Shown here piece by piece: positions 26,752 through 30,921 of a DNA stretch of 64,000 nucleotides. The DNA is taken from the NCBI RefSeq assembly GCF_002150005.2, contig NZ_MSPP01000001.1, forward strand, positions 620,001 through 684,000, in the 5' to 3' direction. Numbering within the stretch: the first letter of the stretch is position 1; each line of letters opens with the position of its first letter. Source of the stretch: Marivivens niveibacter. GTDB taxonomy: Bacteria; Pseudomonadota; Alphaproteobacteria; Rhodobacterales; Rhodobacteraceae. Below the pieces are notes generated by a model. That model was not told the origin of the DNA. It did no database searches and saw only the letters and a list, made by a program, of their open reading frames with translations. The translations under genes were made by a program, and so were the position numbers.

Positions 26752-28119
26752 TTAACCTTGGATTTCGTTTCCAACGACAGTCTGGCCAGACTTTAGGCCG
26801 ATTGGCAGGCTGTCGATGTAAGCGTTCGGTGTGCGGCCGTCGTATGGAACACCATCGATGATGTCGGCAGCAGGGGTTGGTTCACGGTAGCCGTCGCTGT
26901 CCCATGGGAAATCAGCTTCGGATGCCAGGCCTTCGTCCACCAGCATACGGGCGGCTTCTAGGTAGATTTCTGGCTTGTAAACCGACTTTGCGACTTCGTC
27001 GTACCAGCTATCAGGCTGATCTTCGGCGATCTGGCCCCAACGGCGCATCTGGGTCAGGTACCAAACAGCGTCCGAATAGTATGGGTAGTTCGCGTAGTAA
27101 CGGAAGAACACGTTGAAGTCAGGAACGTCACGAACGTCACCTGGTTCGTATTCGAACGTACCAGTCATCGAGTTGTCGATAACGTCAGCGTCTGCACCTA
27201 CGTACTCAGGCTTGGACAGGATGTTTACAGCTTCAACGCGGTTTGCGTTGTCGTTTTCATCCAGCCACATTGCCGCGCGGATCAGCGCTTTGGTCACTGC
27301 CAGCGTGGTGTTTGGGTTTGCTTCTGCGAATTCAGCCGAGATGCCGAATACTTTCTCTGGGTTGTTTTTCCAGATTTCGTAGTCGGTGATCACAGGAACG
27401 CCGATGCCTTTGATAACGGCCTGCTGGTTCCATGGCTCACCCACGCAGTAACCGTTGATGGTGCCTGCTTCCAGCGTTGCTGGCATCTGAGGAGGAGGGG
27501 TAACCGACAGGAATACGTCTGCAGCGATCTGGCCAGTCACGTCTTCTGGCGAATAGTAACCTGGGTTGATGCCGCCCGACGCCAACCAGTAGCGCAGTTC
27601 GTAGTTGTGGGTGGATACAGGGAAAACCATACCCATGTTGAATGGTTTGCCGTCAGCGTTGAACTGTTCGATCACAGGCTGCAGCGCTTCTGCGGAAATT
27701 GGGTGCTGTGGGCGACCGTCATCCATCGAAGGGATGTGAGGGCGCATCATGTCCCAAACTTCGTTCGATACGGTGATGCCGTTGCCGTTCAAGTCCATCG
27801 AGAATGGAGTCACAATGTGCGCTTCGGTGCCGTAGCCGATGGTTGCAGCCAGTGGCTGACCTGCCAGCATGTGCGCACCGTCCAATGTGCCGTCGATCAC
27901 GCCGTCCAGCAGAACCTTCCAGTTTGCTTGCGCTTCCAGCGTTACGAAAAGGCCTTCGTCAAAGAAGTAGCCTTGTTCATAGGCAACGGCCAAAGGGGCC
28001 ATGTCGGTCAGTTTAATAAAACCGAAAGTCAATTCGTCTTTTTCCAGTTCCAGCATTTCGGCAAAGGCCGGAGTGGTCAGCAGCGTTGTCGCTGTAAGAA
28101 TGGCAGATAGCCGTTTCAT
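26752..28119 (-). CDS. nrtA: Nitrate ABC transporter substrate-binding protein NrtA
   Basis: A 455-residue periplasmic nitrate-binding protein of the NrtA/CmpA type. The signal peptide is about residues 1-21 (ending PAFA). Family landmarks are [35 protein letters not shown] and VGEPWNQQA. The first 52 codons of the longer open frame (start 28275) lie in the leader and terminator, so the start is set at 28119, with AGGGAT just in front. It is the first structural gene after the regulated leader, and hence the first target of NasT antitermination. Confidence 0.93.
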
Positions 28120-28382
28120 ATCCCTGTCGTTCCTTTGTTTGTGCCCCATTTTTGGGGTTTTAAGACGCAAAAAGCCGCTGACCGTACACTGCGAGGGAGG
28201 AGGTTCGCAGCAGGTCGAGCGGCTTTGCTCTATCTCCCTAGACACTGGGAGAAGTCGGATTTTGGGTGGCGCCATTGCTACCCTGAGTCGACGTTGACCT
28301 ATACTTTTGACGCTGTCGATTGGTTAAAGGTCGTTAATGCTGCTTTGCGGCAATCGGGCCCGCCAATGTGCCTGTTTTTTAA
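28120..28382 (-). promoter_or_regulatory. nas operon leader with ANTAR-type (NasT) antitermination elements
   Basis: The leader RNA runs from high to low coordinates. Stem-loop P1 (28252-28233) pairs TCTCCC with GGGAGA around an 8-base loop beginning AGTG, with A at 1 and G at 4. Two bases later, stem-loop P2 (28230-28217) pairs GAGC with GCTC around the six-base loop AAAGCC, again A at 1 and G at 4. P2 overlaps the 5' arm of the terminator at 28226-28169, so the two folds exclude each other. Paired A..G hexaloops are the recognised target of ANTAR proteins, and NasT is encoded just upstream. NasT binding P1/P2 would block the terminator when nitrate frees it from NasS. A further hairpin CCCC/GGGG lies at 28144-28157. 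Confidence 0.75.
28169..28226 (-). terminator. Intrinsic terminator in nas leader
   Basis: The 5' arm AAAGCCGCT-C-GACC pairs with GGTC-AGCGGCTTT (one bulged C). An inner helix CTGCGA/TCGCAG closes the loop, and TTTTT ends the 3' arm. The first bases of its 5' arm are also the loop and 3' arm of the ANTAR-type stem P2. Confidence 0.85.
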
Positions 28383-29558
28383 TCAGTCGACCGTTTCGGG
28401 GTCAAAAAAGCGGCGGTCGAAAAACGCACCTGGCTCTAAGTACAGCTTGCCTGATTCCGATGACACGGGTGTGCGGCTGTCCAAAAGGCCTTCGACTTTG
28501 GATGATGCAGACGGCAAATCGGCAGCCAGCCCAGCAAGCGCAGCGCGATATAGGTCACTACGGAAAATCATGCGCGTGCTGGATCCAACCGTTTTGCGGT
28601 CTAACCCCAGTCGAGACGCCAATTGGGACGCGATCCACGCACTTTGCGATGCCCAAGGAAACCCTGCCGCGCCACGGTGGAAGACAACAAAATCGTCGCG
28701 ATGCCGTTCTTCGCCGCGGCCGTTGATAACGATCTGACCAGATAGGGCGCGATCGATAACCTCTGCGGGGACATTTACATACTGTGGACGCGCAAGGATT
28801 TCGGATGCGGTCATGTGGTTTTCGGGTTGGTCCAGCCAACGCCCCGCGCGCCAAACGGCACGTATTAGGCGTTTGGACAGTTCTGGTTCGGATTCGACCC
28901 AATCGTGACGCGCGGCCAAAACCTTTTCAGGGGCAAACCCCCAGATGGCGGCGCCTGGGATCAACAGTTCACCAACGCCATTGTTGACGGCAATTGATCC
29001 CCAAGGTTCGCCGACGCAGAACGCATCAATGTCACCATTCGCAATGGCTTCGGCCATGAGCGCAGGTGGGACGGTATGAATTTCGACCGATTGCGGTGCA
29101 GGCAGGCCCAACGCGTTCAGCCAATAATACAGAAGTTCTGCGTGCATCGAAAAAGGAAACGGAACGCCCAAACGCAATTTACCCGTCGCAGCCGCAATTA
29201 ATGCGCGACCTGCATTTTCCGCATCGGTGAAGTCGAACGTGTATCCGCTGTCACGCATACGTTGTGCAAGGTCGGTAGAGACGCCAATGACAGTACCGTT
29301 CACTGACAATACTGACAGCGCATCGAATTTGATGCCGCTGCTTAGCCCCATCGACGTGGCAATGGGCACAGGGGCCAGCATATGCGCAGCCTCAATCCTG
29401 CCTAGCGCCAGCATATCGCGCAGGGTGGACCATGACGGCGCTTTTTCTAGGGTCAGGTTTAACCCTTCTTGTTTTGCAAACCCCAGTTCCTGCGCAACGA
29501 TAACCGGTGCGCTGTCGACCAGCGCCATAAAGCCGATGTTCAGATCAATTCCGTTCAT
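28383..29558 (-). CDS. nasS: Nitrate/nitrite sensor NasS
   Basis: A 391-residue NrtA/CmpA-family binding protein with no signal peptide (starts MNGIDLNIGFMALVD), so it is cytoplasmic. HMLAPVPIATSMGLSSG and CVGEPWGSIAVNNG mark the ligand pocket. In Paracoccus-type systems NasS binds NasT and releases it when it binds nitrate or nitrite. Its ATG overlaps the nasT stop (ATGA), giving coupled expression of sensor and antiterminator. The next thing downstream is the regulated leader. Confidence 0.92.
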   Translation of the reverse strand: MNGIDLNIGFMALVDSAPVIVAQELGFAKQEGLNLTLEKAPSWSTLRDMLALGRIEAAHMLAPVPIATSMGLSSGIKFDALSVLSVNGTVIGVSTDLAQRMRDSGYTFDFTDAENAGRALIAAATGKLRLGVPFPFSMHAELLYYWLNALGLPAPQSVEIHTVPPALMAEAIANGDIDAFCVGEPWGSIAVNNGVGELLIPGAAIWGFAPEKVLAARHDWVESEPELSKRLIRAVWRAGRWLDQPENHMTASEILARPQYVNVPAEVIDRALSGQIVINGRGEERHRDDFVVFHRGAAGFPWASQSAWIASQLASRLGLDRKTVGSSTRMIFRSDLYRAALAGLAADLPSASSKVEGLLDSRTPVSSESGKLYLEPGAFFDRRFFDPETVD

Positions 29559-30139
29559 GACAGCAGCCCCGCAGTCGTAACAAGTGCTTGGGCCACATCC
29601 ACGACCTTGCGGCCTTGGTCCATTGCTGTTTTGCGCAGCAACGCATAGGCGGCGTCTTCGTCCAGACCTCGGGCTTTCATTAAGATGCCTTTCGCGCGGT
29701 CAATGAGTTTGCGTTCTTCCAACGCCTTTTTGGTGGCTTCCAGTTCCTTGCGCATGCTTTGGAACATATGAAACCGCGTGATCGCCGCATCCAGCACGGG
29801 TTTTAGGCGATCCGCACGTAGGCCGTTCACTACATAGGCGCTTAGCCCTGCTTCGATGGCTGCTTTGGTCAGACCATCGTCGCTTTGGTCGACGAACATT
29901 GCGACGGGGCGATCCATTGGGCCCGACGCCAATGCCAATTCCTCTAGCGCGTCACGTGACGGGCTGGCGACGTCGATCAGCACGACATCGGGGTTGTATT
30001 CGGCAATGGTGCGGGCAACTCGGCTGGATTCAGCTACGATGTGGATATTGTAGTCGCCCGCATGATCAAGGCTCGCGGCGATAAGTTCGGCGCGGTCGCG
30101 ATCAGGTTCAACAACAACGATAGATAGGCGGTCTGTCAT
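29555..30139 (-). CDS. nasT: ANTAR antitermination regulator NasT
   Basis: A 194-residue RNA-binding regulator. The N-terminal receiver-like domain (about residues 1-120) has acidic VVVEPDRD and VLIDVASP with D56 at the usual acceptor position. A coiled helix leads into the C-terminal ANTAR domain (about 130-190, KLIDRAKGILMKARGLDEDAAYALLRK). It acts by binding paired hexaloop hairpins in leader RNA, here likely those at 28217-28252. The start is preceded by a short AT-rich intergenic stretch of 122 bases where I see no clear promoter box. Confidence 0.93.
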   Translation of the reverse strand: MTDRLSIVVVEPDRDRAELIAASLDHAGDYNIHIVAESSRVARTIAEYNPDVVLIDVASPSRDALEELALASGPMDRPVAMFVDQSDDGLTKAAIEAGLSAYVVNGLRADRLKPVLDAAITRFHMFQSMRKELEATKKALEERKLIDRAKGILMKARGLDEDAAYALLRKTAMDQGRKVVDVAQALVTTAGLLS

Positions 30140-30261
30140 AGCGCCTGTCTGCGCTTAGATCTGACTTATTTCTATCGCGCGTGCGTGAGAGTAGTTTGTT
30201 TTCACACTTGTTTTGTGCGGTGTGGTTAAAAAATGTGCGAACTGTCCGATATTTGGGCGAT

Positions 30262-30921
30262 TTAGTTTATCACCCCGTTGAGCGCGGTTCGGAACCGTTC
30301 GCCCGCGACCTCGATTTGTTGGCGTAGCAGGGCGGTGGTTCTGTCGGTATTGCCTGACACGGCTGCATCTGCGATGGCTTTGCACGCGTCGATAGTGGAT
30401 GCGCTGGGCGGCAAACCTGCCTTGCGTGCCATACGGCGATAGCGATCATTCTGGTTCGTCAATATCCGCCAAAATCCAATCAATGTGGGCATTTGGCAGC
30501 CTTGAACCAAGGTTTCCAAAAACGCCAAATAGGCGCGGTCCCAATCGTTTTTGTCCTGCTCTGCTGATCGTCTAAGTCTGTGAAAGGCTGCCAAAATGTT
30601 GCTTTCCCATTCCAGATCGTTGTGGGTCATCGCGTGGGATACGGCCAGCGTCGATATTGATGCGACCAGCGATGTGATCTCGGCAAGGTTGGCGGCGGAT
30701 ACGGGCGCAATGCGATAGCCGCGCTGGTCCTCGAACGTAATCAGCCCTTCGTTGACCAAACGTGACATGGCTTCGCGCATGGGGGACAGCGATACACCAA
30801 AAACATGGCGTGCTTCTTCCAAGTTGATTTTTGACCCCGGTTCAAAGTCCCCGCGCAAAATCGCCTCTTTCAAATCTTGCGATACGCGGCTGGCGCGCGT
30901 CAATTTGGTGCTGTCTTGCAT
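30262..30921 (-). CDS. GntR-family regulator with FCD domain
   Basis: A 219-residue one-component regulator: an N-terminal winged helix (about residues 10-75, LKEAILRGDFEPGSKINLEE...LSPMREAMSRLVNEGL) and an all-helical FCD ligand domain (about 85-212). FCD regulators usually bind organic acids through metal and repress adjacent catabolic genes. It is divergent from the N-carbamoyl amidohydrolase gene with a 298-base gap, so control of the pyrimidine/hydantoin genes is the likely role. It lies upstream of nasT on the same strand with a 122-base gap, and a link to nitrate control is not supported. Confidence 0.85.
   Translation of the reverse strand: MQDSTKLTRASRVSQDLKEAILRGDFEPGSKINLEEARHVFGVSLSPMREAMSRLVNEGLITFEDQRGYRIAPVSAANLAEITSLVASISTLAVSHAMTHNDLEWESNILAAFHRLRRSAEQDKNDWDRAYLAFLETLVQGCQMPTLIGFWRILTNQNDRYRRMARKAGLPPSASTIDACKAIADAAVSGNTDRTTALLRQQIEVAGERFRTALNGVIN

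Follow-up and report, generated by a model that had tools for sequence, protein, structure and literature searches.

The leader between nasS and nrtA of Marivivens niveibacter raises the question of which of its hairpins would be read by the antiterminator NasT, and how they could decide whether the nitrate genes behind them are transcribed. Descriptions of ANTAR antitermination have two hairpins joined by a short linker, and the G at the fourth position of the hairpin loop (G4) is the base contacted by EutV. The first-pass annotation of this DNA placed such a pair in two adjacent hairpins, at 28252-28233 and 28230-28217, the second of them overlapping a terminator. The sequence examined here was a stretch of 64,000 nt, referred to as the window (NZ_MSPP01000001.1, positions 620,001-684,000), and all the features of its leader lay on the minus strand. 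Papers are cited for the portions of their text that were available.

Gene context of the leader

The nasT gene (29555..30139, minus strand) encodes an ANTAR antiterminator with a receiver-like domain (PF03861, 80.9 bits), the receiver part scoring 29.3 bits against Response_reg, marginally below the Pfam cut-off of 30.2. NasT was the sole ANTAR match in its own genome. The protein matched the PDB chains of EutV, Rv1626, and NasR, and in the chain comparison R143, K144, E161, Y165, and M173 of NasT fell on the positions of the EutV residues that contact RNA according to the available text of PMC8934654, the numbering of the PDB chain presumably being that of the paper.

The next gene, nasS (28383..29558, minus strand; PF13379, 220.6 bits), encodes the nitrate-binding partner of NasT. 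It is separated by 260 nt from nrtA (26752..28122, minus strand, with the ATG at 28122; PF13379, 309.5 bits), the first gene past the switch, which is followed by nrtB, nrtC, a globin gene, nirB, nirD, and nasA. Against NCBIfam, the operon proteins scored below the cut-off of TIGR01183 and above those of TIGR01184 and TIGR02374. The molybdopterin oxidoreductase, whose protein was below the NCBIfam cut-offs, was taken as nasA, while nirD was named from gene order and translation only and cysG from gene order only. The placement of nasT and nasS directly upstream of the leader and of nitrate genes downstream was as first annotated, and a receiver-ANTAR protein with an adjacent binding-protein-like sensor before nitrate genes is the arrangement of a NasS-NasT system.

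The conserved first hairpin

For comparison, 295 genomes of the same family were searched, and a NasT match at E<=0.001 was found in 237, many of which had distant response regulators only. At E<=1e-28 there were 119 NasT places beyond that of the window; five were left out (three too near the contig end and two partial) and 114 loci were used. The nasS gene followed nasT directly in 113 of these 114, and in 89 of the 113 the leader, counted to the next binding-protein gene and with its start codon, measured 235-290 nt. A few loci had another gene or a distant nrtA paralogue at the downstream end of the leader.

Most family leaders carried, overlapping the terminator, a P2 hairpin of the sequence GAGC-AAAGCC-GCUC or close to it, and a second hexaloop with A at position 1 and G at position 4 (A1/G4). 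This second hexaloop did not adjoin P2 and stood about 45-54 nt upstream of it, loop to loop. Its counterpart in the window is the hairpin GGGUAGC-AAUGGC-GCCACCC (28264..28283, minus strand), identified as the true P1 by folds, by the covariance model R2 described below, and by covariation in relatives; it has an A1/G4 hexaloop and one A.C mismatch, because of which it was missed by the strict search. The hairpin at 28252-28233, which the first-pass annotation had called P1, is not the P1 conserved in the 113 family leaders.

From these 113 leaders, 63 were chosen by A1/G4 loops and a good P1 stem. Alignment A1 consisted of 53 of the 63 and the window, and alignment A3 of 45 of the 53; loop and pairing counts on both are biased upward by the row choice, and alignment A2 was fitted to the model. 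Alignment A5 was blind to P1 and to the middle hairpin. Its 90 rows were the window and the 89 leaders in which an A1/G4 P2 with a T-rich tail preceded the start codon by 65-140 nt, 24 leaders being dropped. The P1 loop kept A1 and G4 in 86 of the 90 A5 rows, where loop counts are inflated by the tendency of MAFFT to align identical letters, and in 103 of the 107 relatives selected by the model. AAUGGC was the commonest P1 loop (30/107), and a C:G pair closed the loop in 106 of 107 relatives and in the window. The covariation score of P1 in A5 was 0.349, compared with 0.171 in shuffles and no more than 0.163 when the partners were slid, and pairing was found in 97.4% of cells at the inner pairs and in 61-74% at the outer ones. 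Alignments A1, A3, and A2 also gave strong P1 covariation, but their rows had been selected for or fitted to the P1 structure.

Rfam, as searched here, held no ANTAR covariance model, and our own models were built; at the gathering score Rfam returned tRNA only across the whole window and no family at the leader. Model R2, which was trained on 45 relatives with the window excluded, matched the window at 28285-28216 with 46.5 bits (E=3.1e-11), the runner-up scoring 12.8 bits (E=0.043). The models built here took the place of the ANTAR covariance model that the first-pass annotation had proposed to run as a check. With model R1, leader matches were obtained in 107 of the 114 family loci at E<=0.1 and in 103 at E<=1e-3 (including 53 rows used for training), and seven loci had none. 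Among 80 named relatives, R2 had a match at E<=1e-5 in 59, in one case on the opposite strand, and several of these genomes had already been in the earlier set. The nearest tested leader, that of P. denitrificans DSM 413, gave no R2 match at E<=0.1. When further NasT targets were sought in the window's own genome with R1, the next match had an E-value of only 0.37. Across the class, 35 of 385 genomes had an R1 match at E<=0.01, about four being expected by chance on rough E-values; two of the 35 belonged to the own family, and the matches in G400 and G553 lay beside a nasT. In Pseudooceanicola onchidii the NasT-leader motif occurred twice on the strand opposite nasT (L067, 135-203 and 3687-3744; L308, 4135-4203 and 7687-7744) and was not found after nasS; the opposite-strand copies are possible other NasT targets.

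P2 and the terminator

P2 of the window (GAGC-AAAGCC-GCUC; 28217..28230, minus strand) is a hairpin of 4 bp with an A1/G4 hexaloop, recognized by folding and by R2. It overlaps the intrinsic terminator AAAGCCGCU-c-GACC ... GGUC-AGCGGCUUUUU (28169..28226, minus strand, with the U-run at 28173-28169), whose 5' arm is made of the P2 loop and the P2 3' stem, as the first-pass annotation said. The A1/G4 hexaloop of P2 was present in 102 of the 107 model-selected relatives and its C:G closing pair in 104. None of 200 dinucleotide shuffles was as stable as the 72-nt terminator segment (z -4.6) or the 94-nt segment (z -4.7), while the 45-nt two-hairpin segment alone was weaker (z -2.3, with 5 of 200 shuffles as stable). 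The terminator at 28169-28226 was not listed by a simple terminator scan, probably owing to the 3-8-base loop limit of that scan.

Folding of the growing transcript gave P1, the middle hairpin, and P2 first, and P2 was replaced once the 3' arm of the terminator emerged. The folding energy of the leader was -51.6 kcal/mol when free, -44.0 kcal/mol with P2 held, and -42.1 kcal/mol with all three hairpins held. Folding with and without the hairpin constraint, which had been suggested as a check, showed that P2 and the terminator are mutually exclusive. The window leader has two A1/G4 hexaloops, C:G closing pairs, and a second hairpin that excludes the terminator. In the portions of the literature available, the targets of EutV and NasR likewise have two A1/G4 hexaloop hairpins with C:G closing pairs, the second overlapping a terminator (PMC3369931, PMC8934654, PMC7496416), and a C:G pair closing the loop is part of the SELEX motif of NasR (PMC7496416).

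Between the U-run and the ribosome site of nrtA there is a further small hairpin, CCCC-AAAAAU-GGGG (CCCCA/UGGGG; 28144..28157, minus strand). In 86 of 98 leaders the hairpin at this place folded better than the mean of the shuffles. CCUCC was found in this region in 22 of the 98 leaders (11.3 expected), in 19 of them in the loop, and is absent in the window.

The middle hairpin and the long linker

Between P1 and P2 lies the hairpin UCUCCC-AGUGUCUA-GGGAGA (28233..28252, minus strand), which has 6 bp and an 8-base loop bearing A1 and G4 and is separated from P1 by 11 nt and from P2 by 2 nt. The positions and A1/G4 loops of the two hairpins paired in the first-pass annotation were borne out, and the naming of this one as P1 was wrong; the hairpin upstream at 28283-28264 and the character of the terminator loop had escaped that annotation. 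The A1 and G4 noted in the loop of the middle hairpin proved to be a conserved trait, 80 of the 90 A5 rows having a purine at the first loop position and 78 having G at the fourth, counts subject to the same inflation by MAFFT. The 8-base loop, regarded earlier as an oddity, is explained by a middle hairpin whose loop varies between 5 and 9 nt among relatives, the true P1 lying upstream. Two-sided changes were seen at four of its four pairs in A5, yet pairing occurred in only 72.2% of cells, a figure lowered in part by register shifts from the loops of 5-9 bases; A2, fitted to the model, gave 82.1%. The P1-P2 linkers folded better than the mean of their own shuffles in 94 of 108 leaders. That a conserved third hairpin stands between P1 and P2 is well supported, and the arrangement of the leader is conserved in the family.

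The distance between P1 and P2 was 33 nt in the window, and over 107 relatives the median was 33 with 93 at 28-40, on a script scale that counts one base too many. In the available text on E. faecalis, the eut linkers are 5-12 nt long, induction fell drastically with a linker of 3 or 14 nt, and antitermination by EutV in vitro was lost when the linker was extended by 20 nt (PMC3369931, PMC8934654); a curated actinobacterial set of ANTAR targets has linkers of 2-25 nt in the part of the paper at hand (PMC8164766). Unlike the eut leaders of E. faecalis, this leader combines a 33-nt linker with a conserved third hairpin. Because its linker is 33 nt and not short, it is a variant rather than a plain member of the ANTAR target RNAs.

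Since 33 nt exceeds the tolerance of EutV, the middle hairpin would be either a spacer or a third NasT contact. As a passive spacer it would fold up and shorten the linker, so that P1 and P2, the only hairpins used by NasT, could be reached by one NasT dimer. This is a serious possibility, falling somewhat short of an even chance: P1 and P2 have the canonical six-base loops and the strongest conservation, the stem and loop length of the middle hairpin are variable, and several relatives outside the family have a linker of 2-10 nt without a middle hairpin. A spacer, however, needs no conserved loop, yet the purine and the G4 of the middle loop are kept as frequently as stated above, and at L193 and L210 the middle loop, read from the linker sequence, is a perfect A1/G4 hexaloop. 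The role of third NasT contact is favored because G4, the base that EutV contacts, is conserved in the middle loop. A decisive pair made up of the middle hairpin and P2, with P1 as an accessory, which was the view of the first-pass annotation, is distinctly unlikely. The two adjoin with a gap of only 2 nt and the middle loop of the window has A1 and G4, but the canonical conserved hexaloop is that of P1, the middle loop has 5-9 bases in relatives and eight in the window, and a gap of 2 nt falls short of the eut range of 5-12 nt, 3 nt having already failed in EutV according to the accessible portion of PMC3369931.

A scan of the class loci outside the family yielded a candidate leader in 16 of 35 and none in 19. 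Compact leaders (linker 2-10 nt) were found at L194, L197, L203, L206, L208, L211, L213, and L218, and long linkers at L188, L192, L193, L196, and L210. At L211, which is of the same class, three A1/G4 hexaloop hairpins stand close together before a T-run (oriented positions 1370-1440), between nasT and a nasS-like gene.

In P. denitrificans, according to the available text, nitrate splits NasS-NasT, NasT binds the nasA leader, and free NasT was estimated at about six monomers (PMC3795266); the hairpin HI precedes nasA by 137 bp and HII by 91 bp, a spacing of 46 bp, HI being essential in vivo, with its mutation severely lowering expression, and HII contributing to attenuation (PMC5424462). This leader is like that of the window in having nasT-nasS upstream and an intergenic leader with hairpins, and is unlike it in that two hairpins are described, the middle hairpin being unmentioned in the portions available, and in its downstream genes nasABGHC (PMC3795266, PMC5424462). 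By eye, three purine-1/G4 loops stand in a row before the ATG taken as the nasA start in P. denitrificans DSM 413 (L293), and the mapping of HI onto P1 is a guess because R2 had no match there. A literature search of mostly open-access texts, seen in part, found no three-hairpin NasT leader, which is weak evidence of absence.

Proposed antitermination mechanism

What was directly observed of the attenuator, namely its sequence, folds, conservation, covariation, and mutual exclusion of P2 and terminator, points to a mechanism controlled by NasT. Without nitrate, NasT would be held by NasS, the nascent leader would fold P1, the middle hairpin, and P2, and the 3' arm of the terminator would take over the loop and 3' stem of P2, stopping transcription before nrtA. 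Nitrate would release NasT, which would grip P1 (28283-28264) and P2 (28230-28217) and probably also the middle hairpin (28252-28233), and with P2 persisting the polymerase would read through into nrtA and beyond. This explanation, a NasT-controlled attenuator of the nitrate assimilation operon, is in our judgment very probable as a whole; NasT binding, the response to nitrate, readthrough, and what the middle hairpin does are its inferred parts. The NasT antitermination proposed in the first-pass annotation is well supported by comparison of sequences (gene order, conserved leader, and exclusion between P2 and terminator), apart from its choice of P1. The mechanism itself is known, and the departures from it are the third hairpin and the cuckoo-type terminator loop. 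A family-wide leader with 33 nt and a third hairpin is a natural counter-example to the two-hairpin, short-linker rule, and with it the stoichiometry of ANTAR recognition can be put to a direct test.

It is very improbable that the terminator merely ends the nasTS transcript while nrtA has its own promoter behind it and no antitermination takes place. The terminator is indeed placed between nasS and nrtA, but only 46 nt separate its U-run from the nrtA ATG, and a plain terminator would have no need of the conservation and covariation seen in P1, the middle hairpin, and P2. A scan of 28000-30400 for sigma-70-like promoters found none, and sigma-70-like and sigma-54-like scans revealed no promoter conserved upstream of P1. 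A sigma-54-like site upstream of P1 was rejected as not conserved, being present in 1 of 108 leaders (the window itself) as against 3 of 108 in shuffled sequence. A coding leader, with the nrtA start at 28275 or a leader peptide, is scarcely credible and was rejected: the longest nrtA ORF (507 aa) does start at 28275, inside the P1 loop, with the frame open through the leader (28275-28123), but this is not conserved in relatives: of the 36 among 108 leaders with an ATG in the P1 loop only 8, counting the window, have it in an open frame with nrtA, compared with about 5 of 36 expected by chance from a frame open over this stretch in 44 of 108, and the similarity of NrtA starts at query residue 1-3 in most loci listed.

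The terminator loop

The apical loop of the terminator, ACCUCCUCCC on the stem CUGCGA/UCGCAG (28195..28204, minus strand; from sequence and folding), is the motif of the alphaproteobacterial ar14/"cuckoo" sRNAs. In the 107 leaders with a model match and the window (108 in all), CCUCCUCCC was found between the terminator arms in 15, compared with a mean of 0.10 and a maximum of 2 in 300 shuffles. CCUCCC was found there in 31 (mean 3.6, maximum 11) and CCUCC in 39 (mean 10.8, maximum 19), and in 35 of these 39 terminators CCUCC was in or at the loop, while GGAGG was found in 3. The 9-mer CCTCCTCCC lay within 50 bases after P2 in 9 of 58 among the 80 named relatives, whose genomes overlap the family set. 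Maritimibacter alkaliphilus HTCC2654 (L277), a roseobacter, combines the full CCUCCUCCC loop with a P1 loop AACGAU and a P2 loop AAAGCC. The cuckoo-type loop in nas terminators is real and recurrent. On the tree of NasT and NasS, CCUCCUCCC was scattered with 13 changes, at least nine of them forced by starred branches; the scatter was no different from that of shuffled labels (82 of 500 as low), and gain and loss were indistinguishable. No clear link was seen between the loop motif and the strength of the nrtA Shine-Dalgarno sequence.

In the window's own genome, CCTCCTCCC occurred 13 times: nine in a tandem array, one in the leader, and three elsewhere, two of which fold as hairpins. Outside the array it was found 4 times as against 9 for the backward control, so that the 9-mer is not enriched by plain count. 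Since the plain count shows nothing, the case for the loop motif rests on its loop position and recurrence. With a T-run in reach, CCTCCTCCC occurred at two places of this genome, the array end and this leader, and the backward control at none. In 50 family genomes there were 66 such places in 42 genomes, of which 7 were nas leaders, and 15 raw matches of the backward control, so the CCUCCUCCC loop is not a general feature of the terminators of these genomes.

A permissive Rfam search of 27700-28700 gave five sub-threshold matches, and it was ar14 (16.7 bits, gathering score 58.8) and CcsR1 (13.5 bits, gathering score 65.3) among them that pointed to the loop motif. In the parts of the literature available, ar14/NfeR1, CcsR, and the cuckoo hairpins share the CCUCCUCCC loop with the terminator on stems of unrelated sequence (PMC10746234, PMC10253847), and NfeR1 is an RNA of the anti-Shine-Dalgarno type tied to nitrogen control in rhizobia (PMC10746234). 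Unlike these sRNAs, which have several hairpins, the window element has CCUCCUCCC in the loop of one hairpin that is also the terminator of a protein-controlled attenuator, and its Rfam scores are far below the gathering scores. A search of mostly open-access texts, partly available, found no CCUCCUCCC loop in a nas leader, again weak evidence of absence.

In folding, the apical hairpin was compatible both with P2 intact and with the terminator formed, and the loop could be displayed by both RNA states. An sRNA role of the terminator loop is speculative. The joint reading, in which a NasT oligomer reads three tandem hairpins and the RNA terminated in the absence of nitrate is an anti-Shine-Dalgarno sRNA of the cuckoo type, its CCUCCUCCC loop repressing other mRNAs, is doubtful. 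If it were true, a single decision would turn on the operon and shut down a regulator acting in trans; were the CCUCCUCCC loop to act in trans, an anti-Shine-Dalgarno RNA would likewise come under the control of the nitrate switch.

The array in the window's own genome (L155, 924-1530; contig 7, about 215540-216150) consists of a DUF1127 gene (PF06568, 49.2 bits) and then nine tandem CCUCCUCCC hairpins, the last with a U-run. It is large and cuckoo/CcsR-like, and its layout recalls that of CcaF1-CcsR in Rhodobacter sphaeroides, as given in the available text of PMC10253847. Two more CCUCCUCCC hairpins were found in the same genome. One lies between a phasin-like ORF and a phaR-like ORF, both named by eye (L333, about 2010-2045; contig 6), the latter with GGGAGGA ahead of it, and the other lies between or within ORFs (L334, about 2535-2570; contig 8).
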